A stretch of DNA of 64,000 nt from Rhodobacter sp. 24-YEA-8 (GTDB lineage Bacteria > Pseudomonadota > Alphaproteobacteria > Rhodobacterales > Rhodobacteraceae). Where the stretch lies: NCBI RefSeq assembly GCF_900105075.1, contig NZ_FNSK01000002.1, positions 124,001 through 188,000 of the forward strand, given 5' to 3'. Every line of letters begins with the position of its first letter. Position 1 is the stretch's first letter. Positions 32,912 through 60,546 of this stretch are shown piece after piece. Below the pieces are notes generated by a model. The model worked only from the letters and a program-made list of their open reading frames with translations, ran no database searches and was not told the DNA's origin. The position numbers and the translations under genes were made by a program.

Positions 32912-33019
32912 TGTTGATTTGCACTCGGAACTGACCCGGGTTTGGAGTGAACCCCATCGGCTGGACCACGGGAGCCTGAAGAACTGATACGCTGAGCTGG
33001 CCTTAATGGGAGAAGGCTC

Positions 33020-33385
33020 ATGTCATCACGCGGTCCCTACCGGCGACATTCGGCGCCGTTCAAGCTGCAGCTGTGCCAGGATATCCGCGCCGGGGTGATC
33101 GGTCGGCGCGACGCGCAGCGCACGCATCATATCTCGGCCAACCTCATCCACATGTGGCTGACGCAGTTCGACCGGGGAGAGCTGACCAGCGAAGAGGCCG
33201 AGGCGAGCGTCATTGCCGAATACGAGGCGAAGATCGCGGCGCTGGAGCGCAAGGTCGGACAACTGACGATGGAGCTGGATCTTGTCAAAAAAACATCGCG
33301 CCCGCCACACGGTGCCAGCAGCGGGAGATCCTCCATCGTCACCGGCCCGGGGGGTGCTCTGTCAGACGGGGGTGCAAAGCTATGA
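33020..33385 (+). CDS. IS3-family transposase OrfA
   Basis: 121 residues. Helix-turn-helix-type N-terminus (RRHSAPFKLQLCQDIRAGVI, then RTHHISANLIHMWLTQF) and a coiled coil (EAKIAALERKVGQLTMELDL). A run of seven A (33287-33293) is in a place where IS3 elements use -1 frameshifting, and orfB is in the -1 frame, so an OrfAB fusion is likely. Confidence 0.88.
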   Translation: MSSRGPYRRHSAPFKLQLCQDIRAGVIGRRDAQRTHHISANLIHMWLTQFDRGELTSEEAEASVIAEYEAKIAALERKVGQLTMELDLVKKTSRPPHGASSGRSSIVTGPGGALSDGGAKL

Positions 33386-34176
33386 ACCTGCCGCGGAGCA
33401 CGCTCTACTACCGCCCGACGACTTCGGAAGCTGGGCTCACCGATGCCGAGATCACCGCTATCGTCGAAGACATCCAGGACGAGTTCCCCGTCTACGGCTA
33501 CAGGCGGGTGACGCATGAGCTGCGTCGCCGCGGACTTGTGGTGAACCACAAGAAAGTGGCGCGGATCATGCGGTTGGCGGGGCTCGGGATCAGACCGCGA
33601 AAGCGCTACGTGCGCACCACGGACAGTCGGCATGACAACCCGATCTACCCGAACCTCTATCGCAACACTATCCCACGCTGCCTCGATCAGGTTTGGGTCG
33701 CGGACTTCACCTACATTCGCGTCACGCAGGGCTTTTGCTACCTCGCGGTCATCCTCGATGCCTGCAGCCGGAAGGTTGTGGGTTACGCCCTGTCGCAGCG
33801 CCTGGACACGCCGCTCGCCCTGGCGGCGCTGGAATCCGCTGTCGCAAGCAGGCGGCCGCCGCCCGGCTGCATTCACCATACGGACCGCGGCGCCCAATAC
33901 GCGTCTCAACTCTATCGCGAAGCGCTGGAGGCTGCCGGTCTGCGCGGATCAATGAGCAGCGTCGGCAATCCCTACCACAATGCTCAGGCGGAGAGCTTCA
34001 TGAAGACGCTGAAGGTCGAGGAGGTCTATCGCGCAGGTTACGAGACCTTCACCGACGTCGCCCAGCGATTGCCGATCTTCATCGAACAAATATACAATAC
34101 CCGAAGACTGCACTCTGCCCTCGGCTACCGTCCGCCAGAGGAATTCGAAACGCTAATCGCCCAGCAGGCGGCTTAG
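33382..34176 (+). CDS. IS3-family transposase OrfB
   Basis: 264 residues from ATG 33382, overlapping the orfA stop by 4 bases. The rve-type DDE domain has VWVADFTYIRV (first D), HHTDRGAQYAS (second D) and NPYHNAQAESFMKTLKVEE (E). It is complete to the family's usual C-terminus (RRLHSALGYRPPEEFE). Confidence 0.93.
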   Translation: MNLPRSTLYYRPTTSEAGLTDAEITAIVEDIQDEFPVYGYRRVTHELRRRGLVVNHKKVARIMRLAGLGIRPRKRYVRTTDSRHDNPIYPNLYRNTIPRCLDQVWVADFTYIRVTQGFCYLAVILDACSRKVVGYALSQRLDTPLALAALESAVASRRPPPGCIHHTDRGAQYASQLYREALEAAGLRGSMSSVGNPYHNAQAESFMKTLKVEEVYRAGYETFTDVAQRLPIFIEQIYNTRRLHSALGYRPPEEFETLIAQQAA

Positions 34177-34262
34177 TTGGAAGGACCTTCGTGGTCCAGC
34201 CGATGGGGTTCACTCCAGTTTTCCATCGAGAAGTGACCCACCTCTCAGTTATGCGAACCAGG

Positions 34263-35057
34263 TTATTGCTGGGTCAAGGCATGTGCGATTTCCTTCTTCT
34301 TTCGGGTTGCGGCAGCGGTGCTGGCTTTGAAGCGGAAGCTATCGTTTCCGGTCTCCAGAATGTGGCATCGGTGGGTAAGGCGATCGAGCAGCGCAGTGGT
34401 CATCTTGGCATCACCGAAGACGCTGGCCCATTCGCTGAAGCTGAGGTTGGTGGTGATCACAACGCTGGTGCGTTCGTAGAGCTTACTCAGCAGATGGAAG
34501 AGCAGCGCACCGCCTGAAGAGCTGAACGGCAGGTAGCCCAACTCGTCCAGTATCACGAGGTCGAGGCGTGCGAGGTTTTCGGCCGTCTGCCCGGCCTTGC
34601 CCTTGGCTTTCTCCTGTTCGAGCGTATTGACGAGTTCGATGGTGGAGAAGAAGCGGACCTTGCGGCGATGATGCTCGACGGCCTGTGTGCCGATGGCGGT
34701 CGCGACATGGGTCTTGCCAGTGCCCGGCCCGCCGATCATCACGACATTCTGCGCACCATCGATGAACTCGCAGCGATGCAGCTGGCGCACGGTGGCTTCG
34801 TTCATCTCGCTGGCCGCGAAGTCGAAGCCCGTCAGATCCTTATAGGCCGGGAAGCGTGCCGACTTCATATGATAGGCGATGGAGCGCACCTCTCGCTCCG
34901 CAACCTCTGCCTTCAGCAGCTGGGTCAGGATCGGCACAGCTGCATCGAAGGCGGGCGCGCCCTGTTCGATCAGGTCCGTCACGGCCTGGGCCATGCCATA
35001 CATCTTGAGGCTTCGCAGCATGATGACGATGGCCCCACTGGCGGGATCATGACGCAT
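34263..35057 (-). CDS. istB: IS21-family helper ATPase IstB
   Basis: 264 residues, DnaC/AAA+-like transposition helper. It has Walker [10 protein letters not shown], Walker [14 protein letters not shown], and [16 protein letters not shown] with RCHILE at the C-terminus. ATG 35057 overlaps the istA stop (coupled translation). IstB regulates target choice and activates IstA. Confidence 0.94.
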
Positions 35058-36567
35058 GGCGGCCTCCGGTGCTGCGGGCGCGCAGATTGTCATAGCGTCC
35101 GACATCGGCCTTGGGTTCGTGGCGCAGGAGCAGCGCCTGCGGGGCGTCGACGGTCGGGCCGTTGATCGCCTTGCCATCGATCAGCCGGTGCAGGGTGTTG
35201 AGAACATGGGTCTTGGTGGCGATGCCCTCCGACAAAGCAAGCTCGACTGCGGTCAGCACCACCTGCTCATCGTGATGCAGGACGAGGGCGAGGATATCGA
35301 CCATCTCCCGGTCCCCGCCGGGGCGCTTCAGCATCTGCTCCTGCAACTGCCGGAAGGCGGGCGGCAGCTCGACGAATGGTGCGCCGTTGCGCAGCGCCCC
35401 GGGTTTGCGCTGGATCACCGTCAGGTAGTGGCGCCAGTCATAGATCGTGCGCGGCGGCAGATGATGGGACCGATCAATCCGCCGCACATGTTCGCACAGG
35501 ATCTGCCCCTCGGCGACGACCACGAGCCGCTCCGGATAGACGCGCAGGCTCACCCGACGGTTCGCAAAAGATGCAGGGACGCTGTAGCGGTTGCGCTCGA
35601 AGTTGATCAGGCAGGTCGGGGAGACCCTATTGCTCTGTTCGACGAAGCCATCGAAGGGAGCCGGCACGGGCATCAGCGCGTGCTGCTCGTCGCTCCAGAC
35701 ATCGGCGACGCTGCCGACCAGATGGCCGTGCGGGATCTCGCGCCATTGCTCGACACATCGCTGCTCCAGCCAGGCGTTGAGGGCGGCCAGATCGGGGAAG
35801 TTCGGTATCGGTTGCCAGAACCGTGGCCGGGCATCCTGCACGTTCTTCTCGACCTGACCCTTCTCCCAACCCGCAGCCGGATTGCAGAAGTCAGGTTCGA
35901 AGACGTAGTGGTTGGCCATGGCGAGGAAGCGCAGATTGACCTGCCGTTCCTTGCCACGGCCAATCTGACCGACCGCAGTCTTCATGTTGTCGTAGATCCC
36001 CCGCTCAGGCACGCCGCCAAAGACGCGGAAGGCATGCCAGTGGGCGTCGAACAGCATCTCATGGGTCTGGAGCAGATACGCGCGCACCACGAAAGCGCGG
36101 CTGTGCGACAGCTTCGTATGCGCCACCTGCAGCTTGGTCCGCTCACCGCCAAGCACGGCAAAGTCTTCGCTCCAATCGAACTGGAAGGCCTCGCCGGGGC
36201 GGAAGGCCAGAGGCACGAAGGTGCCCCGATCAGCCGTTTGCCGCGCCGTGCGCCATTCCCGCGCGAAGGCCGCGACCCGGTTGTAGGAGCCTGTAAACCC
36301 CAGTGCGACAAGATCGGTATGCAATCGCGTCAGCGGCCGGCGCTGCTTGCGCGACTTCGTGCTGTCGGTCTTCAGCCAGGCCGACAGCTTGTCCGCGAAT
36401 GGATCGAGCTTGCTCGGTCGCTCTGGCACCGAGAACTTCGGCTCGATCGCGCCCGACTTCAGATACTTCTTGATCGTGTTCCGAGAGAGCCCAGTCCGCC
36501 GCGCGATCTCACGGATCGGCAGCTTCTCTCGCAGCGCAAGACGACGAATGACGTTCAAAAGTCCCAT
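35047..36567 (-). CDS. istA: IS21-family transposase IstA
   Basis: 506 residues. N-terminal helix-turn-helix ([20 protein letters not shown]), then a DDE domain with [14 protein letters not shown], a [20 protein letters not shown] region, and a C-terminal beta-barrel with [18 protein letters not shown]. Full length for IstA. An alternative ATG lies 9 bases upstream; GGAGTG supports this start region. Confidence 0.94.
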
Positions 36568-36681
36568 GTGGATCACTCCAATGCCCCCCGTCGCTCACAG
36601 TGCTCAGGGGAAGGGTCACATGGGTCAAATCACGGTGGAAGTTATACGCCTGCCCGGGTCAGTTCCGAGTGCAAATCAACA

Positions 36682-36840
36682 CCCGCCGAAACAGCGCCGT
36701 CACCGCCTCCGGTTGCGCCGACCTCCGTGCAGCCTGTAACCTGTGAGCTGCGTATCGGTGGGATCGGCATCACCTTGCCCGCCGGATATCCTGCTGAGCA
36801 TCTGACAGAGATCCTGCGCGCAGTGAGGGCTACCCTGTGA
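36682..36840 (+). pseudogene. IS66-family tnpA, C-terminal fragment (copy 1)
   Basis: 52 residues directly following the IS21 right end: CELRIGGIGITLPAGYPAEH and LTEILRAVRATL, the typical end of the IS66 small ORF upstream of tnpB. The N-terminal part was lost to the IS21 insertion. It overlaps tnpB through GTGA. A similar C-terminus occurs at 44660-44917. Confidence 0.8.
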
Positions 36841-37187
36841 TCTTTCCCTCCAACGCTTGTCGCATCTTCCTGGCGACGCAACCCATTGATTTCCGCAAGG
36901 GTATGGACGGGCTGGCAGGCTATATTGCCAACAATTTCGACCTCGATCCCTTCAGCGGGGCGATCTATGTGTTCCGGTCCCGCCGCGCGAACATGCTGAA
37001 GATGATCGTCTGGGATGGGACGGGTCTGGTCCTCGTGACAAAGCGGCTTGATGGCCGCGGCTTTCCTTGGCCCACCGCTCAGTCCGCGCCGTTCACGCTA
37101 TCCAGAGTTCAGCTTGATGCCCTGTTCGAGGGAACCGAGTGGAACCGCGTCAGCATAGCAGTGACGCGAAAGCCCGTCTTCCTCTGA
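36837..37187 (+). CDS. tnpB: IS66-family accessory protein TnpB
   Basis: 116 residues, full length for IS66 TnpB. It has RIFLATQPIDFRKGMDGLAG, IYVFRSRRANMLKMIVWDG and LVTKRLDGRGFPWP. TnpB is needed for IS66 transposition by unknown means. The GTG start overlaps tnpA. The large tnpC transposase that should follow is replaced by an AAA+ ATPase gene 74 bases downstream. Confidence 0.9.
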   Translation: MIFPSNACRIFLATQPIDFRKGMDGLAGYIANNFDLDPFSGAIYVFRSRRANMLKMIVWDGTGLVLVTKRLDGRGFPWPTAQSAPFTLSRVQLDALFEGTEWNRVSIAVTRKPVFL

Positions 37188-37261
37188 TCTTTCCCTTTTC
37201 CTGCAGCCTGTCCCGCCGGACCTGATTTCCGGCGTCAGCGCCGCTTTATCCGGAGTCTGCC

Positions 37262-38368
37262 ATGTCTTCCCTCTTCCCGATCCTCCTTGTCGATTTTCCC
37301 CGCCGTGACCGTGAGCGTCAGGCCCTCAGAGAACGCCTCACAGCGCATCACCGCCGATTGCGCGCCCGCAGCATCTGTCTTGAAGCCCCCATGAACGGGC
37401 GCGGTATGATTGATTACGCGGCATGGGAAGACCTGATTGCTCGCATCCAGCTCTATCCGGAAGAGGAAATGCGCATTGAACGCCGGGCGGCGGCTCTGGC
37501 CAGGCGCGAGTTGGAGCGTGATGGGTTGCGCCACCTGAAACCGGACGACAGGAAGAGGATCGAGCGCTTGCGGGATGGTGCGCGCCTGGTGGCCCTCAAG
37601 TCCGAACATCAGGCCGATGAGCTTGCAGCCCGGCTTCATTCCGAATTTCCCTGGATGGGCGCCGCCACGGAGAGAGTATGGCATGATATGCGTGCTTCGG
37701 TTCGCGATGGTTCGCGCGGGCTGCGGATCCGCCCGATTTTGCTCGACGGCCCACCCGGAATTGGCAAATCGGTCTGGGCCCGGCGGCTGGCGGAACTCAT
37801 CCAGAGCCCTTCAATGACCTATGAGGCAACGGCGGAAAATGCGTCGTTTGGGTTGATCGGCAGCCAGAAGACATGGAGCAATTCCTCGCCAGGGCGTCTG
37901 GTCAATCTGGTCATTGATCATAGGGTTGCCAACCCGATTGTCATCGTGGACGAAGTCGAGAAGGCCGGATCTGCCTCTTCGACCGCGGGGCGCTCCTATG
38001 ATCTTGCCGCCTCTGTTCTGCCATTGCTGGAAACGGCTACAGCCAGGAGCTGGTCCTGCCCCTACTTCCAGGTTCCATTCGACCTGAGTTGGGTCATCTG
38101 GGTGATGACCTGCAACGATTGGCGTCTTCTGCCTGAGCCGCTGCTCAGCCGTTGCCCGCCGATCCGGCTTTCACATTTGGGCCTGCAAGATCTCGAGGGC
38201 TTCGCCCGCCGCGAGGGCGAGCGACGCGGATTGTCGGTCGAGGCTATCGACGCGATCTCCGAAATGCTGGTGCGGCAGTCGGATCAATCCTCGCGCCTCA
38301 GCCTGCGCTCGGTGATCCGGGCATTGGAGCTGGCGGCCACTTTGGAAAACCACCCGCTTCTGCAGTGA
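37262..38368 (+). CDS. Lon-like AAA+ ATPase downstream of IS66 tnpB
   Basis: 368 residues. N-terminal about 150: charged, helical (EEEMRIERRAAALARRELER, LKPDDRKRIERLRDGARLVA). The AAA+ core has Walker A GPPGIGKS (163-170), Walker B IVIVDE (226-231) and a sensor-type segment TCNDWRLLPEPLLSRCPPIR. The fold and the VDEVEKAG string resemble Lon's ATPase module, but there is no peptidase domain with a Ser-Lys pair. A decayed paralog follows the tnpB remnant at 44.9-45.3 kb. Next come a DUF6634-like gene and metallophosphoesterases. Role unknown. Confidence 0.85.
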   Translation: MSSLFPILLVDFPRRDRERQALRERLTAHHRRLRARSICLEAPMNGRGMIDYAAWEDLIARIQLYPEEEMRIERRAAALARRELERDGLRHLKPDDRKRIERLRDGARLVALKSEHQADELAARLHSEFPWMGAATERVWHDMRASVRDGSRGLRIRPILLDGPPGIGKSVWARRLAELIQSPSMTYEATAENASFGLIGSQKTWSNSSPGRLVNLVIDHRVANPIVIVDEVEKAGSASSTAGRSYDLAASVLPLLETATARSWSCPYFQVPFDLSWVIWVMTCNDWRLLPEPLLSRCPPIRLSHLGLQDLEGFARREGERRGLSVEAIDAISEMLVRQSDQSSRLSLRSVIRALELAATLENHPLLQ

Positions 38369-38379
38369 ACCCGCGTGCG

Positions 38380-38832
38380 ATGAATTTTCAACACCGCCTG
38401 AAAGAACGCAGAAAAATGCACCGAAAAATCATGCCATCTGAGCTCAATTACGACTTCTCAAGTGTTCTTGCTGCCGTGAATGCCGCTGAAGCAGGCCCCA
38501 GCATGTCTGATATCGACGCCGCCCCAGTCCTGGATGAATGGTGGCCGGCATTTGATCCGCACAGAACCCCGTTCCTGATCGGGCGGGTGAACAACCACCC
38601 AGTCCTGGGTTCAAAATCTATTCGCACGTCCCGGCTCCTTGCGCTCAACAAACACGCCGGTTGGGCGCGGACATTCAACCGTTGGTATCGTTTGGGTGCA
38701 CCTGCATCAGATCTGCCGATACCCATGCCTGGATTGAACCCGATCAATAGCGTGGAAACCCTTGGCGCGCTTTTGGCTGATTACATCAAACGCGTTCGCG
38801 AACTCGAAGCTGCCCCGCGGAGAAATACTTAA
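38380..38832 (+). CDS. DUF6634-like protein
   Basis: Up to 150 residues. The core HPVLGSKSIRTSRLLALNKH followed by AGWARTFNRWYRLGAP matches what I recall of DUF6634 proteins (consensus HP.LG....TS.L...D...GWARTLSRFYRLG), found in Rhodobacterales near AAA+ ATPases. The start is uncertain: ATGs at 38380 and 38416 are both possible with weak ribosome-binding sites. It lies between the AAA+ gene (11-base gap) and a metallophosphoesterase gene (2-base gap), so an operon is likely. Function unknown. Confidence 0.65.
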   Translation: MNFQHRLKERRKMHRKIMPSELNYDFSSVLAAVNAAEAGPSMSDIDAAPVLDEWWPAFDPHRTPFLIGRVNNHPVLGSKSIRTSRLLALNKHAGWARTFNRWYRLGAPASDLPIPMPGLNPINSVETLGALLADYIKRVRELEAAPRRNT

Positions 38833-38834
38833 AA

Positions 38835-39662
38835 ATGCGCATCCTTGTCATCGCCGACCTTCACCTGGATCTGTGGGATCATGCCCGGCGCGATCCCTTT
38901 GGTCCGCTATTGCCGATTTTTCAGACACTGGACGCCATCATTATCGCCGGTGATCTTGCCAACGACCCGATGAGGAACTGGCCAGGCGCGCTTGAACGGA
39001 TTGGCCAGTTGATTGAACCGTCAAAGGTCTGGGTCATGCCTGGAAACCATGACTATTACGGCTGGAATCTCGCCGGTGACGATGGGTTGCGTGCCCTAGC
39101 CGAGCGAGCCGGAATGCACTTCGCCCAAAAGGCCTCTGTCGAGTTCGGCGGCGTTCGCTTTCTCTGCTGCACGCTATGGACGGACTTCAGCCTGCACGCG
39201 GAACCGCATGTGTCAAAGGTCACCGCCCAGCGGGCGATGAACGATTATTTCCAAATTGCCAGAGACGCAAATGGATCAGACCTCGTCCTGCCGGACGATG
39301 TGGTGCGCAAGCACAAGGAGCAGCTTGTCTGGCTTGCCAGCGCACTGGACAAAGCATTCGAAGGCCGAACCGTCGTCGTGACACATCACTGCCCATCGCC
39401 AGCGGCTCTCGGCACTGATAACCGTCTAGCCCCAGCTTTTTGCACTGATCTCAGCAGCTTGACGGTGACACGCCGTGTTGACTTGTGGTTGTTTGGGCAT
39501 ACTCATCGCCACTTGAGCGCCGTGCCAGTAAGAACTCCGGTGGTGAATGTGTCGCTCGGATATCCGAGGGAGGTCGATGACAGCGATATCGTCGATGTCG
39601 TGTTGCGCGGAATCGTTGACACTGATCTTCCGGGCTTCTTTGCCTATCCGGAGCTATTGTGA
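38835..39662 (+). CDS. metallophosphoesterase
   Basis: 275 residues, calcineurin-like fold with all five metal motifs: ADLHLD at residue 6, AGDLAND, PGNHDYY, VVTHHCPS and LFGHTHRH. This is a di-metal phosphodiesterase of unknown substrate, without a signal peptide, so cytoplasmic. It begins 2 bases after the DUF6634-like gene and its TGA overlaps the next ATG. Confidence 0.92.
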   Translation: MRILVIADLHLDLWDHARRDPFGPLLPIFQTLDAIIIAGDLANDPMRNWPGALERIGQLIEPSKVWVMPGNHDYYGWNLAGDDGLRALAERAGMHFAQKASVEFGGVRFLCCTLWTDFSLHAEPHVSKVTAQRAMNDYFQIARDANGSDLVLPDDVVRKHKEQLVWLASALDKAFEGRTVVVTHHCPSPAALGTDNRLAPAFCTDLSSLTVTRRVDLWLFGHTHRHLSAVPVRTPVVNVSLGYPREVDDSDIVDVVLRGIVDTDLPGFFAYPELL

Positions 39663-40003
39663 TGCACTGGTTCACCGCTGACCTGCACTTCGGGCACAAG
39701 AACATCATTGATTATTGTGCTCGGCCGTTCATGGACGTGACCGACATGGATGCGCAGCTTCTCTGCAGCATTCAGGCACATGTTCGGCCAGCCGACACTC
39801 TCTATGTGGTCGGTGACTTTGCATATTGGAAAGCCAGCGGACCCGAGAGGCATCGGATCGCCGCGATCTTCGGGCAAATCCCAAGACGAAAGATTCTGGT
39901 CAGGGGTAATCATGACGCCAACTGGATCTGTGATCTGGGCTGGGAAGAAGTGCACGACATGCTATCGGTCACAGCAGAGGACCAGCGCCTTTTCATGTGC
40001 CAC
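39662..40003 (+). pseudogene. second metallophosphoesterase, 3' truncated
   Basis: ATG 39662 overlaps the preceding stop. It reads HWFTADLHFGHKNIIDYCAR, VVGDFAYW, RGNHDA and LFMCHYR, in the order of the YfcE/pesticidal-type small metallophosphoesterases. After MCHYR the expected GHxH motif is missing and sequence of an IS1182-type transposase (minus strand) begins at about 40004. The frame runs on to 40135 as nonsense. Probably inactive. Confidence 0.8.
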
Positions 40004-40262
40004 TATCGAAGACCGGGATGTGAGGATCGAGGCCGTGTTCATCAACCAGCCAGCCCAACATCTCGCACGCTCCATAGGCGGTGTCGGCGACTAGCGTTTC
40101 GGGATGCAGACCAAATGTGTCATCTGTGCGCATGAGCATATCGCGCGCAGAGCTGATCTCGTCCTGACGCACCGGTGCGGTCGCCTCGACATCCACGATG
40201 ATCGCATGTTCCAGATCGACCAGATAGTTGGTGCTGTATGCAGTTTTCCGCGCCGATTGACA
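40004..40262 (-). pseudogene. IS1182-family transposase fragment
   Basis: The minus strand reads TAYSTNYLVDLEHAIIVDVE, ATAPVRQDEISSARDMLMR, then ETLVADTAYGACEMLGWLVD and PHIPVFD, the middle of an IS1182-type DDE transposase (second catalytic aspartate in ADTAYG). Both ends are missing. It cuts the metallophosphoesterase gene on one side and abuts the restriction endonuclease gene on the other. Confidence 0.8.
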
Positions 40263-40263
40263 A

Positions 40264-41157
40264 TCAGGGCCTTACGGCAATATGCCAGCCATGTGCTGAG
40301 CAAATCGGTTGCTCTGCAATTGTGACCTTGTGGGAAATGAAGTCACTTGGGCCACAGTGCGGCAACCCCAAAGCCTGAATCAGTGCAGCATCATATGTCC
40401 CGCTGAGCAACATGATCCCCTCAGCCGCAAGGCGGTTCCGGCTGCCTCGAGGCCCATCTGACCGAATGCGACGCATGAAGTCCTTCTGCGCAGCGGCCTC
40501 CTCAACAATGCGGCGCGAAATCACCCGGTCGGTAACGCCCCTGAAGAGCTCGACTATTTTATCGTTGCCGGTGGGCGCAGCGAAGATGGATGCAACGAGT
40601 TTCGATGAGATGGTGCGCCAGAAGTTCGGCTCGACGGGGTGATCGCGCAGCAACCACAATATCTGTGTGGCTCCGAAGGCCGAGACGCTTTTCTTGCCAT
40701 CCCGGTTCGCTCCGCCCGTCAAGTTCGCCGGATCCGCATACATCAGGCCCAAGAAGCAGCGGGAGTTCTGCTCGTCGAGAGCCGCAAGGAGGCAGGCGTG
40801 CCCGACCGCTTCTTGGGGTATCATCCAGTTGCCAGTGATCGTGAACTTCATGTCGACGTTTTCGCCGCCAATCATGAAGTCGAGAACCCCCTTGGGCACC
40901 TGCATCCTAGCGCGCATCAGGATCTCGACGCGCGTGCCAAGATAGGTTTTCTCGGTCTTTTCCAACTCTCCGTAAGAGCGCCGACGGGTATTGACGGTGT
41001 CGACGACGTCATCGACTACCTTGCGGAGCATGCCGGGAAACCACTCGGAAGCCGAGGCGCGCCCGCCCAAGAGTCGTTCCACCTCATGCCCGAGGCGCGA
41101 AAGGTCATCGTAACGGGAATGACCGGGGACGATCAGGCTGGGCGCGGGTGACCTCAT
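40264..41157 (-). CDS. NaeI-family type II restriction endonuclease
   Basis: 297 residues. The catalytic pattern fits NaeI: E78, D93, D102-x-K104 (VLDFMIGGENVDMKF), preceded by LEKTEKTYLGTRVEI and followed by WMIPQEAVGHACLL and DGKKSVSAFG. In NaeI the residues are Glu70, Asp86, Asp95 and Lys97, nearly the same spacing. NaeI recognises GCCGGC, needs an activator site and has a C-terminal CAP-like domain; the C-terminal third here would be that domain. Its ATG overlaps the methyltransferase stop. The last residues border an IS1182 fragment, so the C-terminus may be slightly altered. Confidence 0.85.
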   Translation of the reverse strand: MRSPAPSLIVPGHSRYDDLSRLGHEVERLLGGRASASEWFPGMLRKVVDDVVDTVNTRRRSYGELEKTEKTYLGTRVEILMRARMQVPKGVLDFMIGGENVDMKFTITGNWMIPQEAVGHACLLAALDEQNSRCFLGLMYADPANLTGGANRDGKKSVSAFGATQILWLLRDHPVEPNFWRTISSKLVASIFAAPTGNDKIVELFRGVTDRVISRRIVEEAAAQKDFMRRIRSDGPRGSRNRLAAEGIMLLSGTYDAALIQALGLPHCGPSDFISHKVTIAEQPICSAHGWHIAVRP

Positions 41158-42101
41158 GCCACCGCGTAGATCCGTTTGGATTGGATCGCAATGGCGACCT
41201 GGCGGCCGACCGCCTCAGCGACCGGTGGAGGGAAGGCGTTGCCTACCTGGCGATAGGCGTGGGTCTTGCGTCCATAGAATTGCCAGTCGTCGGGGAAGCC
41301 CTGGAGACGAGCCACCATCCGGATTGTAAGTCGAGGCATGCCCACGTAGTCCTTTTCAGGCGCCTCCTCGGCCAGAGTCTTGCCGTTTACTCCCAATGTC
41401 GCCCACGCGGCTCGTGCGCGCGTAGGACCGAGATCAGGGCCACCATGCTTCTTGGAGCCACCCACGATGGTGGGCGCGATCTCATCGGCACGCTCCGCCC
41501 ATGCACGAGCACCTGGCCACCCCCTCGCAGCCATCAGGTCTCCGAGCACCCGCCCAACAGTCGGCGGGTTGTGATGACGCTCTTCCGGCCATTCGAATTT
41601 ATCGGCGATGTCCTGCTTAACCGCGACGATCACAACGCGCGGCCGAAGCTGCGGCACACCGAAGTGGGAAGCGTTTAGTAGGCGCCAGTCGGCGACATAG
41701 CCAAGCTTGGTCAATTTCTTCTTGAGCGACTGCCGATAGTCCACGAACACCGCGTCTAGGAATCCGCGCACGTTCTCAAGCATAACGGCCTGAGGGCGGA
41801 TCTCGTCAACCAGGCGCAGAGCCTCCGGGAACAGGTCGCGCTCATCATCCTTGCCCAGTTGCTTGCCAGCGACGGAAAAAGGCGGGCACGGAACACCACC
41901 AGCAAGCAATTCGACACCGGCGAAGGATTTGCCGACAAAGTTGCGAAGATCGCCCTCTCTGACGTCCCAGAATGGGCGGTTCATGCGAAGCGTCTGACAG
42001 GCATGGGGGTCGATCTCGACGAGAGCGTCATGCTCGAAGCCTGCGCGTTCGAGGCCAAGTGCTTGGCCACCCGCACCCGCGCAAAGCTCTACTGATCGCA
42101 T
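41154..42101 (-). CDS. DNA (cytosine-5) methyltransferase, NaeI-type partner
   Basis: 315 residues. Motif I ELCAGAGGQALGLERAGF, motif IV GGVPCPPFS with catalytic Cys72, motif VI MLENVRGF, motif VIII QLRPRVVIVA, motif X QVGNAFPPPVAEA. All are present, with the variable target-recognition region between VIII and X. It protects host DNA from the endonuclease encoded in the overlapping downstream gene. The recognition sequence is inferred from the nuclease family only. Confidence 0.93.
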   Translation of the reverse strand: MRSVELCAGAGGQALGLERAGFEHDALVEIDPHACQTLRMNRPFWDVREGDLRNFVGKSFAGVELLAGGVPCPPFSVAGKQLGKDDERDLFPEALRLVDEIRPQAVMLENVRGFLDAVFVDYRQSLKKKLTKLGYVADWRLLNASHFGVPQLRPRVVIVAVKQDIADKFEWPEERHHNPPTVGRVLGDLMAARGWPGARAWAERADEIAPTIVGGSKKHGGPDLGPTRARAAWATLGVNGKTLAEEAPEKDYVGMPRLTIRMVARLQGFPDDWQFYGRKTHAYRQVGNAFPPPVAEAVGRQVAIAIQSKRIYAVA

Positions 42102-42279
42102 GACTGCCTCCTAATTTTTCCGCATCTTAGAGGGCGAGGATGAGGATTTGAAGCGCGAAATCCATGGCCGAAGCGGGTTTTCATGCTTGCGGCGGGGCGC
42201 ATGCCAACCGTCTAAAGTTGTGGATTTAAGGGCGCTGACCGGCCATGATCCCGATCATTAGGTTTAGGAGTCGGGCAAC

Positions 42280-44052
42280 GTGCATCATATTTCTGAATTG
42301 AAAATTCAGGGTTTCAAGTCGATAGCCAGTGCAACATTTCCACTGTCACATTACACGCCACTCGTTGGCTACAACAACGCCGGGAAGACGAATATTCTCA
42401 GGGCGGCGAGTTGGGTGATGAAAAAGGCCAGCTTAAGCGCCGAGGATTTCAACGACGTAAACACGCCGGTGACAGTGGAGGCGGAGATTTCTGGGATCAC
42501 AGCTGCAGTGTTGGACGCACTGGATGCCGCTCATCGCGCCCGTATAGAGCCCCTGGTCGTCGATGGAAAAATTAAGATCCGTAGATCCCAGGCAACGCCC
42601 GGTCAGTCAGCGGCCAGCATACGTTTTGAGGTCGAGAAGGAACAAGATGGAGCCATGGCCTGGGTCGTTAATCCCACGGGGATTGATGCTGCGATCGGAG
42701 TTCTTTTCCCGGATCCCATCCTTATCGGGGCGATGGAAAATGCAACCGAGGACGTGGCAAAGTTCGGGAGTGGAACTACAATCGGGAAGCTCCTCAAAGA
42801 GATCATGGGCCCAGTCATCGAACGGCACTCACCTGCCGTTGCTGCGGCTCTGGACGCCGTTGGACGGCAGCTGTCTGCTAACTCTGCTGAAAAGGATGAG
42901 ACACTCACGGCGCTCGATGCGTCTATCCAGGGGGAGCTGGCACGACTGTTCCCCGGGGTCACGGCCAAGACTCACGTCCCTGTTCCGGACTTTGCCGACT
43001 TCATGAAATCTGCGACCATACGCATCTTTGAAGAGGGCTTTGATCATCCCGATGGACGGGACGCGTCTTCGTTCGGTCATGGTGCTCAGCGCTCAATTCA
43101 GATTGCATTGATCAAATGCCTGGCTGAAGTAAAGCGGGCAGCCGGAGGCAATGTTGGCCGGACAACGCTTCTCCTAATTGATGAACCTGAACTCTACCTT
43201 CATCCGCAGGCCATTGAGGTCGTGAGAGCTGCTCTTAACCGCTTGGCTGGTGAGGGATACCAAATCATCATCACAACCCATTCGGCGAATATGATCGCCC
43301 GCTCAGATGCCAAAAATTCGCTTTTGATACGACGCAGTGTCGAGCATGGAACGACATGCCTTCCAAGGATGAAGGACGTTGTCGAGCAAGCGATAGCCGA
43401 AGCGGATCATCAGTCGGAAGCCCTATTTGCGCTCTCGAACTCGAGCAAGGTCCTGTTCTCCGAGAGGGTCGTCATCACGGAAGGCAAGACAGAGCGCATG
43501 ATTTTGCCTGCGGTGTTCGAGAACCTGTTCGGGTTGACACCAGGTGAAGACAAGATCGGCGTTGTTGATATCGGCGGGGTTCACAATATACCGGATACTA
43601 TGCGCATTCTTTGCGCTATGGGCCTCCCTTGCAAGGCTATCGTCGACCTCGATTTTGTGTTCAGGACCGCACCAGCGAAGGCTTTGATCGCCGCTGACCA
43701 CCCAGCGATTGTAGAGTGCAAGGCGATCCTGGCTCGCCTCGCGGCCTCAGGCGCAGTAGGGCTTGATGCTTCGGGGCTCCCTACGAAGCATGCTGGAAAT
43801 CCGGCGATAGTGGCGTTCGAGCTCTTGGCGCTTGAGGTTGATGCGGCTCCGCACATCGACGCTTTGTTCATCGAGATGCAAGAACACGGAATATGGCTGT
43901 GGAAGAAGGGCGCCATTGAAGCTTATCTGAACATTGCTAAAACCGATGCGGCACGGATGACCTTTATTGATCGCCTCAACGAAGAGGCTTATCGGGCCGC
44001 GCTGCCGGACTATCCCGCGATCTCCGACGCGATGGCTTGGCTTCGCGTGTAA
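42280..44052 (+). CDS. OLD-family ATP-dependent endonuclease
   Basis: 590 residues. The N-terminal ABC-type ATPase has Walker A GYNNAGKT (30-37), a signature-like FGHGAQRSIQIAL, Walker B LLLIDEPE (297-304) and H-loop ITTHSANMI. The C-terminal TOPRIM nuclease has E401 in EGKTE and D456-x-D458 in IVDLDFVF. Stand-alone OLD proteins are nucleases with antiphage roles (P2 OLD as prototype; Gabija GajA is related, but no GajB helicase is adjacent). GTG start at 42280 with AGGAG ten bases upstream. It is divergent from the restriction-modification pair, consistent with a defence island. Confidence 0.92.
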   Translation: MHHISELKIQGFKSIASATFPLSHYTPLVGYNNAGKTNILRAASWVMKKASLSAEDFNDVNTPVTVEAEISGITAAVLDALDAAHRARIEPLVVDGKIKIRRSQATPGQSAASIRFEVEKEQDGAMAWVVNPTGIDAAIGVLFPDPILIGAMENATEDVAKFGSGTTIGKLLKEIMGPVIERHSPAVAAALDAVGRQLSANSAEKDETLTALDASIQGELARLFPGVTAKTHVPVPDFADFMKSATIRIFEEGFDHPDGRDASSFGHGAQRSIQIALIKCLAEVKRAAGGNVGRTTLLLIDEPELYLHPQAIEVVRAALNRLAGEGYQIIITTHSANMIARSDAKNSLLIRRSVEHGTTCLPRMKDVVEQAIAEADHQSEALFALSNSSKVLFSERVVITEGKTERMILPAVFENLFGLTPGEDKIGVVDIGGVHNIPDTMRILCAMGLPCKAIVDLDFVFRTAPAKALIAADHPAIVECKAILARLAASGAVGLDASGLPTKHAGNPAIVAFELLALEVDAAPHIDALFIEMQEHGIWLWKKGAIEAYLNIAKTDAARMTFIDRLNEEAYRAALPDYPAISDAMAWLRV

Positions 44053-44134
44053 ATGAATAGGTTCCGACGGCCACGGCCGCCAGCCCGGAGCGGTTCAAAG
44101 ATACGGAAATCACCTCATAATTGACGAGAATTTC

Positions 44135-44659
44135 ATGACCTGCGCCTATCCCGTTTTGGAATTCACAAAGCAAATATGGCCGTATGCGCTCGAACTCGTG
44201 AGGGCTGTCGCAGCCCCTGGAGCTGCCGTTTGGATTGCAACAATCATTTTCAGGAGACAGAAGCAGTTTGAGCGCCAGAGCGAGGCTGCGAAGGAGTTGC
44301 GCTCCGCGCTTTCTGAGTATCTTACACTTACAAAGCGGCTTCATCGGCAACGAAAAAGCGCTCAGACAGCCGATGACCTCATCGGTGAGACTGTTAGCGA
44401 ACTATCTCAAAAGACCGAGCAGGCATATCAATACATTAGGCTTTTCTCTACTGACCCATCGATGATTGCTGCTGCTGAGGCTTTAGCAAGAGCCGACGCT
44501 AAGCGGCAGGGAGCAATCCTATTGATTAGAGATGCGCATATCGCTTCACTCAATCCCGGCGCAGCCAGCCTGCACGAAGCCGAAGAGGCCTTCGGCATTG
44601 CCATCAAGGATTACGTCGATAAGGTGAGGGAGGTTCATCAAAGAAACCTAGGGCTTTAG
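44135..44659 (+). CDS. small membrane-anchored protein of unknown function
   Basis: 174 residues: one N-terminal membrane helix (ELVRAVAAPGAAVWIATIIF) followed by a basic, helical cytoplasmic part (RRQKQFERQSEAAKELRSAL and onward) likely to form a coiled coil. No family recognised. It lies 82 bases after the OLD gene on the same strand and could be co-expressed; several defence systems pair a nuclease with a one-helix membrane protein, but nothing here proves that. Confidence 0.6.
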   Translation: MTCAYPVLEFTKQIWPYALELVRAVAAPGAAVWIATIIFRRQKQFERQSEAAKELRSALSEYLTLTKRLHRQRKSAQTADDLIGETVSELSQKTEQAYQYIRLFSTDPSMIAAAEALARADAKRQGAILLIRDAHIASLNPGAASLHEAEEAFGIAIKDYVDKVREVHQRNLGL

Positions 44660-44917
44660 CCACAGATCGGCGCCAACAAATCCCTGGTGGCAATCTGGGT
44701 CAAGAACGCGCAGCGCAAAGATTCCGCGCCGGCATTCTTCGAGGTCGTGCCCCTGACTGAGGTCAAGTCCAGCCGTAAACAGAGCAAGGCCGTTGGCCCG
44801 GACCATGCCGCCTCGACCTGCCGGATCCGCATCGGCGATACCGATATCGCGATACAGCTCGGCTACCCGGCCGATCATCTGGCCGAGGTTCTACGCGCGA
44901 TGAGGGCCTCGCAGTGA
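44660..44917 (+). pseudogene. IS66-family tnpA, C-terminal fragment (copy 2)
   Basis: Open frame directly after the previous stop: QIGANKSLVAIWVKNAQRKD, then FFEVVPL, then CRIRIGDTDIAIQLGYPADH and LAEVLRAMRASQ. The C-terminus parallels copy 1 at 36682-36840 (GYPAEHLTEILRAVRA). The N-terminal DNA-binding part is missing. Confidence 0.8.
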
Positions 44918-45350
44918 TTTCTCCCGCCGACAGTTTCCGCAAGGGCATGGACGGGCTACCGCCGGAACATGCGAAGATGGCTGCGATGCGCTCCCCGACC
45001 GGTTTTGGCGGATTGAGCTGAGCGATAACGACCGGGAGCGGATCCAGCGCCGGGCCCGCCGCATCCTTGAACGTCGCAAGGCGGCCTACGGTCTCGAACA
45101 TCTGAAGTCCGATGATCGCGAGCGGCTGGAGGTGTTGAAGGACGGCGCCCGGCTGATCTCCATCCGGAATGAGTATCACGCCGACGAACTGGCTGCGGCC
45201 TTGCACGAGGACATGCCCTGGATAGGTGATCTGGGTGCTGACCTCAAACGATCACCGGCTGCTGCTGGAGCCCTTGCTCAGCCGCTGCCCGCCGATCCGG
45301 CTGCGTCGAAGCGATTGCAGTCGATATTATCGCGGCGTCTAACATCAAGA
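44914..45350 (+). pseudogene. decayed tnpB-AAA+ unit (copy 2)
   Basis: A GTG at 44914 overlaps tnpA as in copy 1, and SFRKGMDGL of TnpB is recognisable. Most of TnpB is deleted, and the sequence passes into RIQRRARRILERRKAAYGLE, HLKSDDRERLEVLKDGARLI and YHADELAAALHEDMPWIG, which align with residues 70-132 of the AAA+ ATPase at 37262. A further deletion joins this to RSPAAAGALAQPLPADP. The Walker motifs are gone. An IS3 element begins at 45351. Confidence 0.75.
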
Positions 45351-45406
45351 TGAATAGCCCCATGTTTCGTGGACGCCTTCTTTGCTAATTTTGAGGCAAG
45401 GAGGCC

Positions 45407-45679
45407 ATGATGGGCACAGCCACTTTCAGCGACGACTTCAAGCGCGATGCGGTCGCTCAGATCACGGAGCGGGGCTACCCGGTCAGCGAGGTTTCTGAAC
45501 GGCTCGGGGTGAGCAAGCACTCGCTCTATGCCTGGAAGCGCAAGTTCGCGAAGACGGCATCAGGCGAGACCGAGAAGGATGCCGAGATCCGCCTGTTGAA
45601 GCGGGAGCTGGCACGGGTTTCCGAGGAGCGCGACATCCTAAAAAAAGCCACCGCGTATTTCGCCAGGGATGCAAAGTGA
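45407..45679 (+). CDS. IS3-family transposase OrfA
   Basis: 90 residues with helix-turn-helix GYPVSEVSERLGVSKHSLYA and a leucine-zipper-like coiled coil RLLKRELARVSEERDILKKA. A tract CTAAAAAAAG near its end (45639-45648) is the usual place for -1 frameshifting. GGAGG lies upstream. Its stop overlaps the orfB start. Confidence 0.88.
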   Translation: MMGTATFSDDFKRDAVAQITERGYPVSEVSERLGVSKHSLYAWKRKFAKTASGETEKDAEIRLLKRELARVSEERDILKKATAYFARDAK

Positions 45680-46588
45680 GATACGCGTTTGTGGCCGAGC
45701 ATCGGAGGCAATTTTCTGTCCGGGCAATGTGTCGCTGCCTGCGCATCCAGCCAAGCGGGTTCTATGCCTGGCTACAGGCTCCAATGAGCGTGCGCGCTCA
45801 GGAAGACAGGCGCCAAACTGAGCTGCTGCACAAGGCCTGGACCGAGAGCGGGAAGGTCTACGGCTATCGCAAACTTCACGATGACCTGATTGATCAAGGT
45901 GAAAGCATCTGCCCGAACCGGGTTGCCCGGCTTGCACAGCTTGCGGGGATCAAGGCGGAGATCGGCTATAAGCGCCGCCCCAGCAGCTATGGCGGCAAGC
46001 CATCGGTCGTGGTCGACATCGAGCCGGTGAACGCCACCGGTTCGAGAGAACCGGCGAGGCCTCGACCGGCAGTTCGACGTCGAAGCACCAGACTGGGTGT
46101 GGGTGACCGACATCACCTACATTCGGACGCAGGAAGGTTTTGCCTATCTTGCCGTTGTCATCGACCTCTATTCCCGGCGTGTGGTCGGCTGGTCGATGCA
46201 AAGCCGTCAGACGACAGATGTCGTCTTGCAGGCCTTGCTCATGGCTGTCTGGCGACGCAAGCCGAAGAACAAGGTGCTGATCCATTCGGACCAGGGCAGT
46301 CAGTTCACCAGCATGGATTGGGCTGCGTTTCTGCGCGCCCACAATCTTGAGCATTCGATGAGCCGCCGCGGCAACTGCCACGACAACGCAGTCGCCGAAA
46401 GCTTCTTCAACCTGCTCAAGCGCGAGCGGATCAGACGCAGGACCTACCGGACCCGCGAAGACGCAAGGCAGGACGTGTTCGATTACATCGAGATGTTCTA
46501 CAACCCGAAGCGCAAGCATGCGAGAAACGGGATGCTGTCGCCCGCCGAGTTCGAACGGCAGCAGAAGATGAGACGCGAAGGCGTCTAA
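45676..46588 (+). pseudogene. IS3-family transposase OrfB, disrupted
   Basis: The N-terminal part (to about 46025) and the catalytic part (WVTDITYIRT, IHSDQGSQFTS, RRGNCHDNAVAESFFNLLKR) are both good, but lie in different frames. Between KPSVVVD and LDRQFDVEAPDW there is an extra segment of roughly 40 bases (about 46020-46063) not expected in the family, containing CCGGT/ACCGG repeats. This insertion breaks the frame, so the element is unlikely to transpose on its own. Confidence 0.8.
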
Positions 46589-46796
46589 GAAACTCGGGGC
46601 TATTCAACCTGCTACCGTGGAATTACGACGCCCACGTGTGATCGGGACATCGCTTACGTTGATACCGGCACCTCACCCCATGAGTGCTGCCGCTGCAGCC
46701 GAACCACCGTTGGTCGCTGGACCCTCTCTCACACGTTCGGGCTTGTCGGAGGCTCCACATCCAGACGGTGAGTGACGACTGCTGCCACTAAAACCT

Positions 46797-59222: not shown

Positions 59223-59575
59223 ACCCGCGGCTGCGTTCTGCGCGGCGGCGATATCAGTTCCTCCAGCGACAAGCCGGTTTGCGCCTCCGCCTTCAAGACG
59301 ACCATTGCTGCGGCCTTCGCGTCCTCTCCCGCATCGTGATGGGCAAAATCTAGGGTCAGCGCCTTTTTCAGATGCCCAAGCCCGTGGCCGCCATTACCCC
59401 GAAATTCCGGCCATGCCCGGCGGGCGATCGTCACGCTGTTCACCCATCGCCATCCGGGGTCGGCAATGCCGCCCGCCCGGCAGGCTCCGCCCATGGCACG
59501 GCTGTCGAAAGTGCTGTGCTGGATGATGAGGTGAGTCTCAAGAAGCGGCGCGGTCAGGGGAAGGATCTGTAGAAA
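59216..59575 (-). pseudogene. 3'-5' exonuclease (DnaQ-like), C-terminal fragment
   Basis: The minus strand reads LIIQHSTFDSRAM, WRWVNSVTIARRAWPEF, GGHGLGHLKKALTLDF, then HHDAGEDAKAAAMVVLKAEA. These are the ExoII (HxxFD) and ExoIII (HDAxEDA) motifs of a DEDDh exonuclease, as in DNA polymerase III epsilon/RNase T. The ExoI motif is missing: the frame upstream of about 59575 belongs to the tniB strand. The sequence from EELISPPRRTQPRVP to the stop borders the oxidoreductase fragment. Confidence 0.75.
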
Positions 59576-59581
59576 TCTCGG

Positions 59582-60546
59582 GTCACCGCTCACGAAATCT
59601 CCGCCATCCTCCAGAAGCTTCGCGGCCTCTATCTTGACACGCCCCGTGATGCCACCTTCGACACCCATGCCGACCGCCTCCTCACCCGGGACGTGGCCGG
59701 CAACCTGACCCATGTCCCGGTCCGCTTCACCGACGGTCGTGAGACCCGCGGCATCATGGTGATCGATGGCGCCGGGGGCGGGAAGACCTCGCTGGTGGCC
59801 CGCGCGCTGAAACGCCACCCCGCGATGGCCGCGCCGGAAGGCGGGCTGCCGCGCTATATCAATGCCCGTGTCCCGACCCCGGTGACCTTCAAGGGCATGG
59901 GCACCACTCTTCTTCAGAAGAGCGGCTATGATCTGAGTGCGAACACCACAACGGCCTGGCAGGTCGGGGATAAATTGCGGGTCCGGCTCAAACTTCTGGG
60001 CATCAGCGTGCTCTGGATCGACGAGGCGCATGATTTTTCTGCGCGGATCGCGACCTCATCCTTCGCGCCCTGAAGGCGCTCACGCAGGGCGATGACGCGC
60101 TGATCATCATCCTCAGCGGCACGGAGCGCCTGCGCGATATCATCCGCACCGATGCCCAGCTGATGCGGCGTTTCACCGTGCAAAACCTGCCCCCTGTCGA
60201 TGCCGCGACCGACACGGACAACTTCCTGCAGGTCATCAATGCCTATTGCCGCCACGCTGGCCTGGATGAACCGGTCGAGCCGGATCTGGTGCCGCGCCTC
60301 TTCCACGCCGGCCGCTACCGGTTTGGGCGTAGCATCGAGACCGTCATCGACTCCATCGAGGTCGCGCTGAATGCGGGCGCTTCCCGGCTGAGCCTCGAGC
60401 ATTTCGCGGACCTTCACTTCATGAAGGAGGGCTGCTCGCGTGCGGAGAACCCCTTCGTCGCGCGGGAATGGTCCCATATCGACCTTGATGCGCCGGAGGC
60501 TGTTCCGGAACCGCGTCGCGGTGCTCGTCGGCGGAGGGTCGCATGA
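59582..60546 (+). pseudogene. tniB: TniB-like transposition ATPase, frameshifted
   Basis: The first part reads VTAHEISAILQKLRGLYLDT, FTDGRETRGIMVIDGAGGGK (Walker A GAGGGKT) and VLWIDEAHDF (Walker B). The frame then breaks at 60027-60035 and resumes one frame over as DRDLILRALKALTQG, LIIILSGTERLRDII, LMRRFTVQNLPPVD, to the stop at 60546. The expected DEAHDLFC suggests one base was lost in the T-run. TniB is the ATP-dependent target selector of Tn5053/Tn552-type transposons; the TniA transposase is missing. Confidence 0.82.

Follow-up and report, generated by a model that had tools for sequence, protein, structure and literature searches.

Two probable left-end remnants of IS66-type transposons with a Lon-like AAA+ ATPase gene in Rhodobacter sp. 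24-YEA-8

A window of 64,000 nt from Rhodobacter sp. 24-YEA-8 (contig NZ_FNSK01000002.1, positions 124,001 to 188,000 of the forward strand) was found to contain two units in which the tail of an IS66-type tnpA gene is followed by tnpB and by a gene for a Lon-like AAA+ ATPase. With a probability of roughly three in four, both are left-end remnants of opened-up IS66-type transposons that carried cargo between the ATPase gene and tnpC. This assignment is made by analogy, since better-preserved relatives show the order end, tnpA, tnpB, ATPase gene, cargo, tnpC, end, in some cases with further cargo past tnpC. The two units would be the broken front ends of two different members of one transposon family. 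Positions refer to the window unless a locus (L number) is named.

The first unit, originally predicted to comprise a tnpA tail, a full tnpB and a Lon-like AAA+ ATPase gene at 36682-38368, was borne out by profile matches. It lies on the plus strand and consists of a tnpA tail (36682..36840) that lacks its N-terminal part and the left end, abuts an IS21 element and ends within the start of tnpB, an intact tnpB (36837..37187; Pfam TnpB_IS66 PF05717, 2e-33; NCBIfam IS66_TnpB NF033819, 3.7e-30) and the intact gene for a 368-aa ATPase without a protease domain (37262..38368; PF00004, 9e-11). The tnpA tail gave no profile match of its own, its likeness to the tail of the second unit being seen by eye. 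The second, decayed unit was likewise recovered in the same order and on the same strand (44687-45302). It comprises a Paracoccus-type tnpA tail (44687..44917; IS66 TnpA NF047595, 0.0053, under the cut-off), a tnpB start followed by a deletion (44914..44960) and remnants of the ATPase gene covering residues 55-135 (44991..45233; 1.3e-18) and about residues 277-303 (45225..45302), the latter extending over residues 259-305, with one stop, at the protein level.

Bounded relatives of the window units

A protein search for the ATPase yielded 355 homologues among 7,996 scored candidates, of which the best 120 were listed. Gene neighbourhoods were compared in 87 loci, comprising 80 of the at least 80 present in genome contigs, one from a viral contig and six of 19 matching plasmid records; many of these loci are near copies and do not represent independent events. 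In 26 of them, tnpB was located upstream of the ATPase gene on the same strand. A 27th locus (L092) was set aside, as its tnpB belongs to a compact IS66 element of its own at a distance of 2.5 kb. The tnpB-ATPase pairs occur in several genera and have unrelated flanks, and an IS66-type end precedes tnpB by 456-528 bp in 22 of the 26 loci. The gap between the two genes measures 32-214 bp in 21 loci and 1,099-1,109 bp in the five that have an intervening phosphoesterase gene.

Six relatives from six genera are bounded on both sides by GTAAGC ends and contain tnpB together with the ATPase gene. The first 13 bases of both ends are identical (13/13), with a complete 8-bp target duplication (8/8), in the elements of Mesobaculum (L122; 15,656 bp), Oceanicella (L123; 16,569 bp), Rhodobacter capsulatus (L124 and L125; 27,509 bp) and Phaeobacter (L126; 3,808 bp), the last being an internal-deletion derivative. 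The elements of Alloyangia (L145; 16,840 bp; end identity 11/13, duplication 8/8) and Chachezhania (L144; 16,767 bp; 11/13, 7/8) agree less closely, and their far ends were located by searching for the duplication, so that the match is partly selected, a point that counts against the proposed reading. Among the bounded elements, the flanks are unlike and the ends alike. Nine genomes were searched for the 13-base end. Eight of them had no more than one occurrence on either strand, and Rhodobacter viridis had two in forward and four in reverse orientation; the reversed 13-base end, used as a control, never occurred in the nine genomes. Two R. viridis loci (L127 and L129) have ends matching the first 60 bases of the tnpC-side end of R. 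capsulatus, which suggests more copies of the element in this species. The earlier suggestion that the ATPase may be a component or passenger of an IS66-derived element is supported by the relatives.

The tnpC gene is separated from the ATPase gene by 8.5-8.7 kb in L122, L123, L144 and L145 and by 22.8 kb in L124/L125. Its product matches PF03050 (4.9e-85 in L122, for instance) and an IS66 C-terminal element, and an open frame extends as far as the usual C-terminus in L144, in L124, in L148, for which no far end was found, and in L130, an end fragment in which the ATPase side was not seen. The Phaeobacter derivative L126 retains a 39-residue TnpC tail. In protein P0003, an ATPase part that is 96% identical to the window ATPase over 61% of the latter runs into a piece of TnpC, whose tail is nearest to the TnpC proteins of the large IS66-ended elements L141, L124 and L130 (44-52% identity); this joint is explained by the occurrence of internal-deletion derivatives such as L126. 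Mobilisation of a TnpC-less element in trans had been considered, and was dropped once tnpC turned up far downstream in the same elements. As a control, the TnpC of L144 was used as a query, which matched 54 of 198 genomes of the family. Among the 30 best TnpC loci, tnpB lay within about 0.5 kb upstream in 29, the lone exception (L152) encoding a TnpC 82% identical to the query. A compact tnpA-tnpB-tnpC relative of 5,289 bp (L184) has the same end and an 8/8 duplication, and no ATPase gene was found in it.

The IS66 family is characterised by the tnpA-tnpB-tnpC arrangement of the IS679 type, and its members are usually taken as insertion sequences (IS) of a few kilobases. The relatives conform to this family in their GTAA-type ends, 8-bp duplications, TnpA, TnpB and DDE transposase TnpC, and the window in its TnpB. 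They depart from it in having an AAA+ gene after tnpB, in placing tnpC 8.5-22.8 kb from the ATPase gene and not directly after tnpB, and, in the five long relatives, in their size of 15.7-27.5 kb. A compact tnpA-tnpB-tnpC element would have been opened, with the ATPase gene placed after tnpB, cargo next and tnpC towards the far end. TnpC, together with TnpA and TnpB, would pair the ends and insert the element with an 8-bp duplication.

IS66 elements with passenger genes (tIS66), such as ISPa75-fosZ, have been described (PMC12888890). They resemble the present elements in carrying genes unrelated to transposition and in a similar end (GTAAGCG...), but in ISPa75 the passenger follows the DDE transposase gene in an element of 2,996 bp, whereas here cargo parts tnpB and the ATPase gene from tnpC. 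The literature searched, mostly through the opening parts of abstracts and without most subscription papers or ISfinder, contained no account of IS66 elements that have this ATPase or that bear cargo between the tnpB and tnpC genes. Within this scope, the split IS66 arrangement with the ATPase appears to be new, whereas IS66 elements with passengers are already known (PMC12888890). If IS66 machinery carries defence islands of 16-28 kb, a vehicle that has escaped notice, and whose ends can be searched for, may underlie many islands of the Rhodobacterales.

Several further observations weigh against left-end remnants of such transposons in the window. No TnpC homologue (PF03050) was found in the 64 kb, and a search for three types of GTAA-type IS66 ends with up to three mismatches detected none above controls at the window element; the single match with two mismatches, at 27001, compares with one in the controls. 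In the genome as a whole, the 12-base end with up to one mismatch gave 27 matches (7 forward and 20 reverse) against 15 and 13 in the controls, which is no excess. The cargo status of the NaeI and OLD genes described below is inferred for a window that has neither tnpC nor recognisable ends. Among the relatives, three (L122, L123 and L145) have a broken TnpC, and the frame in L133 seems out of register. A wider view of the exceptional TnpC locus (L182) showed no tnpB or ATPase gene in 14.5 kb upstream; decay may have gone further in this element, or its genes may be arranged differently. Under the distance rules used, 29 of the 87 ATPase loci had none of the tested neighbours, although one of these (L047) shifted to the group with Tns genes when a more sensitive query was used. 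In an even scan of the family, the ATPase was present at E values of 1e-30 or better in 18 of 198 genomes, including its own, and tnpB was found in the 1.5-kb flanks of none of the 28 listed matches outside its own genome. When 20 of these 28 were re-read with wider flanks, same-strand upstream tnpB was again absent (0/20), and tnsB- and tnsC-like genes lay downstream in two (L207 and L209) and upstream in one (L210). The original prediction had named scarcity of the ATPase next to tnpB as evidence against itself; such scarcity was seen in the even scan.

Two sets of loci stand apart. In L116, L117 and L052, units of tnpB, phosphoesterase gene and ATPase gene have a left border (TGAACCGACGGCC...) that is not IS66-like and contains repeated short motifs, and a DUF6634 gene occupies the place expected for tnpA. 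The left part is common to L116 and L117, and no matching right end or duplication was recognised for them. A stretch of 28,897 bp reaching from L140:55 to L141:9030 has IS66-type ends, an 8/8 duplication and tnpC, and contains mostly metabolic-looking frames and an IS3-like pair. It was left out of the count of bounded elements because no tnpA, tnpB or ATPase gene was found in it.

The ATPase in IS66-type and Tn7-like contexts

The best sequence and fold matches of the ATPase were to the AAA+ module of Lon. In NCBIfam, the top match was to TIGR00763 over the Lon AAA+ region (5.8e-20, well short of the full-length cut-off of the model), a profile search of the PDB returned the same part at 3.6e-20, and the predicted structure (mean predicted local distance difference test score 88.5) matched Lon AAA+ structures at 8.1e-16. 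The protein differs from Lon in that its 368 residues correspond to the AAA+ part only, and no protease domain was found by Pfam, NCBIfam and PDB profile searches. Residues that we take to be the Walker A glycine and lysine (G166 and K169), the Walker B aspartate and glutamate, the sensor-1 asparagine and the arginine finger were invariant in 83 of 83 aligned rows, and G168 was kept in 77. An aromatic residue is present at the aligned pore-loop position, a tryptophan standing opposite the Lon pore-loop tyrosine, with the role we assume for it, in 82 of 83 rows.

The mean ratio of nonsynonymous to synonymous substitution rates (dN/dS) of the ATPase gene was 0.10 in a family of eight loci, in which tnpA stood at 0.13 and tnpB at 0.03, and 0.12 in a Tn7-like family of seven loci, in which tnsB stood at 0.15 and tnsC at 0.13; two sets of three loci gave 0.14 and 0.19 for the ATPase gene. 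Judged by these ratios, the ATPase is under purifying selection.

In 13 of the 87 loci, the ATPase gene was followed on the same strand by Tns genes. A Tn7-like element of 12,685 bp (L083:2777-15461) has TGCCAATG ends and a perfect 5-bp duplication (tattg on both sides), and it contains, in this order, cargo, the ATPase gene and tnsA-, tnsB- and tnsC-like genes. The third of these genes was identified by a TniB match (7e-11, in L097) and the second by a weak rve match (4.6e-4), whereas the first had no Pfam match. Tn7-like transposons are large and carry defence cargo (PMC10293859), features in which they resemble the elements described here, and the same ATPase family precedes the tnsABC-like genes in L083 and its relatives. 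The window unit differs from them in having IS66 tnpB in place of tnsABC, and the IS66-type relatives in their 8-bp duplication, compared with 5 bp in L083.

The ATPase gene thus adjoins core transposition genes on the same strand in both IS66-type and Tn7-like transposons. On a tree of 100 rows, the IS66 label required 14 changes and the Tns label 5, as against means of 23.9 and 16.0, respectively, after shuffling. None of 500 shuffles gave a value as low in either case; near copies contribute to this result. Because the gene stands beside two unrelated sets of transposition genes, is conserved and keeps to these contexts along its phylogeny, it may act in transposition as an accessory, a proposal whose odds we place slightly below even. 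The ATPase would then most likely form a ring that remodels or regulates the complex of transposase and DNA, a role comparable to that of ClpX acting on MuA. In a wider and more tentative proposal, the Lon-like AAA+ protein would be a hitherto unrecognised transposition factor shared by two unrelated DDE transposon classes, split IS66 and Tn7-like elements. It would remodel or license the transpososome, differ from AAA+ regulators of the TnsC, IstB and MuB type and support the transposition of long defence cargo, and several lineages would reuse the nrdJ site described below. An AAA+ protein common to both types of transposon would offer a testable accessory step in DDE transposition.

The frequent occurrence of the ATPase without tnpB or Tns genes weighs against a role in transposition. 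It agrees instead with a passenger that is carried by several kinds of mobile element, has a function of its own in defence, anti-defence or element maintenance and is dispensable for movement, an explanation of real but limited plausibility. The presence of the gene on both IS66-type and Tn7-like elements can be read in the same way, as can the 19 of 87 loci in which DUF6634 or phosphoesterase genes are the sole neighbours, the lack of tnpB in all 28 other matches listed in the even family scan, and locus L107, whose ATPase gene lies near a gene for a protein with a DUF6538 match and near type I restriction-modification (R-M) genes. Against a passenger stand its place beside core transposition genes on the same strand in both types of transposon and the contexts that track its phylogeny, and PADLOC gave no convincing match for the ATPase (best 0.001).

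In 13 loci (L208, L212, L213, L211, L011, L214, L219, L074, L037, L040, L081, L019 and L022), nrdJ precedes the ATPase gene closely and in the same orientation, the distance to the ATPase start being 316-354 bp in five and greater in the rest. Loci with nrdJ are dispersed over the ATPase tree (10 changes compared with 10.6 in shuffled trees), so that this position has probably been reached repeatedly and looks like a repeated insertion site. Three TGNCCA motifs, with almost unchanged spacing from the nrdJ stop codon, occur in six of ten loci tested (L208, L212, L213, L011, L214 and L019), a count that was reached by 0-2 of 2,000 shuffles. Of the other four, L211 has one looser match and L219, L074 and L081 have none. 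These arrays are read as candidate Tn7-like ends; partner ends for five nrdJ-associated loci were not found in the downstream stretches searched. A glnA-like gene takes the place of nrdJ before the ATPase gene in five further loci (L057, L080, L085, L108 and L114), at 308-314 bp in four of them and at a longer distance in the fifth, and a looser TGNCCA motif was matched in two and absent in three.

In L107 and L222, the gene of a distant ATPase has as a neighbour one for a protein of 624-626 aa that matches DUF6538 and that we take to be integrase-like; a type I-like restriction helicase gene is also present in L107. These loci are a possible third mobile context of the ATPase.

Origin of the two units and the genes between them

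The two units had been read as direct-repeat copies between which recombination could have moved or duplicated the island. Their gene order and strand are indeed alike, as expected if one had been duplicated and the island moved or expanded by homologous recombination. Alignment of the DNA, however, yielded significant similarity in just three stretches, of 78 nt (82% identity, 45225-45302 to 38092-38169; E 2e-18), 72 nt (72%; 5e-7) and 24 nt (96%, the tnpB start to 36890-36913; 2e-6). Paracoccus loci are more similar to the second unit than the first unit is, its tnpA-tail stretch being 85.6% identical over 278 nt to L042 (8302-8579) and its ATPase remnant 88.9% identical over 189 nt to L118 (7946-8134); a phosphoesterase gene lies between tnpB and the ATPase gene in L042 and just before the ATPase gene in L118. 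From these comparisons, the units are true homologues but no recent direct repeat. Since the second unit is nearer to the Paracoccus loci and matches the first in short pieces only, the two seem to have been inserted separately and to stem from related lineages. On this ground, it was rejected that one unit is a duplicate of the other, and movement of the island by recombination between units that are not copies is very improbable. Least probable of all is the chance landing of an IS66 element beside an unrelated host ATPase gene with later loss of tnpC, which fits the window taken by itself, with no tnpC and its left end lost, but is contradicted for the relatives by the recurring tnpB-ATPase gaps in several genera with unrelated flanks and by the six bounded elements that hold both genes.

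In the reading of the units as left-end remnants, the genes behind the first ATPase would be cargo of the first element. A DUF6634 protein (38380..38832, plus strand; PF20339, 6.8e-29) is encoded directly after the ATPase, and a homologue follows the ATPase gene also in Paracoccus and Ketogulonicigenium loci. Metallophosphoesterase a (38835..39662, plus; PF00149, 5.9e-16) has homologues adjoining the ATPase gene in relatives. Metallophosphoesterase b (39659..40135, plus; PF00149, 2.4e-4) is shortened to 158 aa, compared with 272 aa in relatives, and aligns only to residues 1-123 of the 272-aa Ketogulonicigenium homologue. These genes are followed by probable cargo consisting of a NaeI-type restriction endonuclease (40264..41157, minus; PF09126, 2.6e-54; PADLOC REase_II, 2e-35), a C5 cytosine methyltransferase (41154..42101, minus; PF00145, 7.2e-72) and an OLD-type ATPase-TOPRIM protein (42280..44052, plus; PF13175, 2.1e-24; PF20469, 1.3e-16; PADLOC Old, 4.1e-222). 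The earlier inventory of the island, with two metallophosphoesterases, the NaeI endonuclease and C5 methylase and the OLD-type protein, was largely sustained, with the corrections that the second phosphoesterase is shortened and that the DUF6634 gene had gone unlisted. The frame at 44135-44659, previously taken for a membrane protein, had no family match above the cut-off.

Defence genes were identified in the elements of relatives by a scan of chosen open frames, which makes it plausible that the NaeI R-M and OLD genes were carried as cargo by the first element. The cargo comprises a type I R-M system and PDC-S19 in L122, GajA and GajB of Gabija (1e-236 and 4e-238) in L123, and an OLD-like protein, a C5 methylase, AIPR/MzaE and a PDC-S25-type SIR2 protein in L124/L125. 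When the island was compared with 194 related genomes, its own included, only pieces of it matched outside its own genome, namely the methylase, NaeI, the stretch 40006-40242, tnpB and the ATPase gene.

The stretch 40006-40242, just past the shortened phosphoesterase b, is 89-90% identical to sites in two genomes of the same genus, and the frame on its minus strand resembles DDE_5 weakly (0.019, under the cut-off). This putative transposase remnant may have truncated the phosphoesterase gene. Two more partial copies of the ATPase gene are present in the same genome on contig C1, near 1054791 (L150) and near 1120443 (L151), the former with a tnpB match upstream.

Insertion sequences and remnants around the units

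The first unit is preceded by an IS21-family element (32912..36681, minus strand) with inverted end sequences at 32912 and 36681 and istA/istB-like frames, into which an IS3 element with IS3-like frames is inserted (32943-34217); both family names were assigned by reading of the frames. No duplication was seen between the two flanks of the IS21 element. The first tnpA starts exactly at its end (36681). Beyond the left side of the IS21 element, tnpA was not matched again, although the TnpA queries were weak and missed the known tail as well. As tnpA begins at the IS21 end and has no match further left, the left end of the unit is taken to be gone. The first element would accordingly have lost its left end at the IS21 element, and its tnpC and right end would be lost or lie elsewhere.

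The second unit is bordered on its right by an IS3 element (45346..46611, plus strand) that is delimited by inverted arms of 35 nt (45346-45380 and 46577-46611; 83% complementary). Its best plasmid matches are annotated as IS3 family transposase, and in a comparison of the island with plasmids, the 15 records listed of 68 match this element.

Neither TnsA- nor TnsB-like genes were matched in the window. A broken TniB/TnsC-like gene lies in two frames on the plus strand at 59573-60543, 21 kb from the ATPase gene; its first piece matches the TnsC-like protein of L047 (3.4e-12), and Pfam TniB was matched at 5.7e-5 and 1.6e-4. This gene is a possible Tn7- or Tn5053-like remnant.

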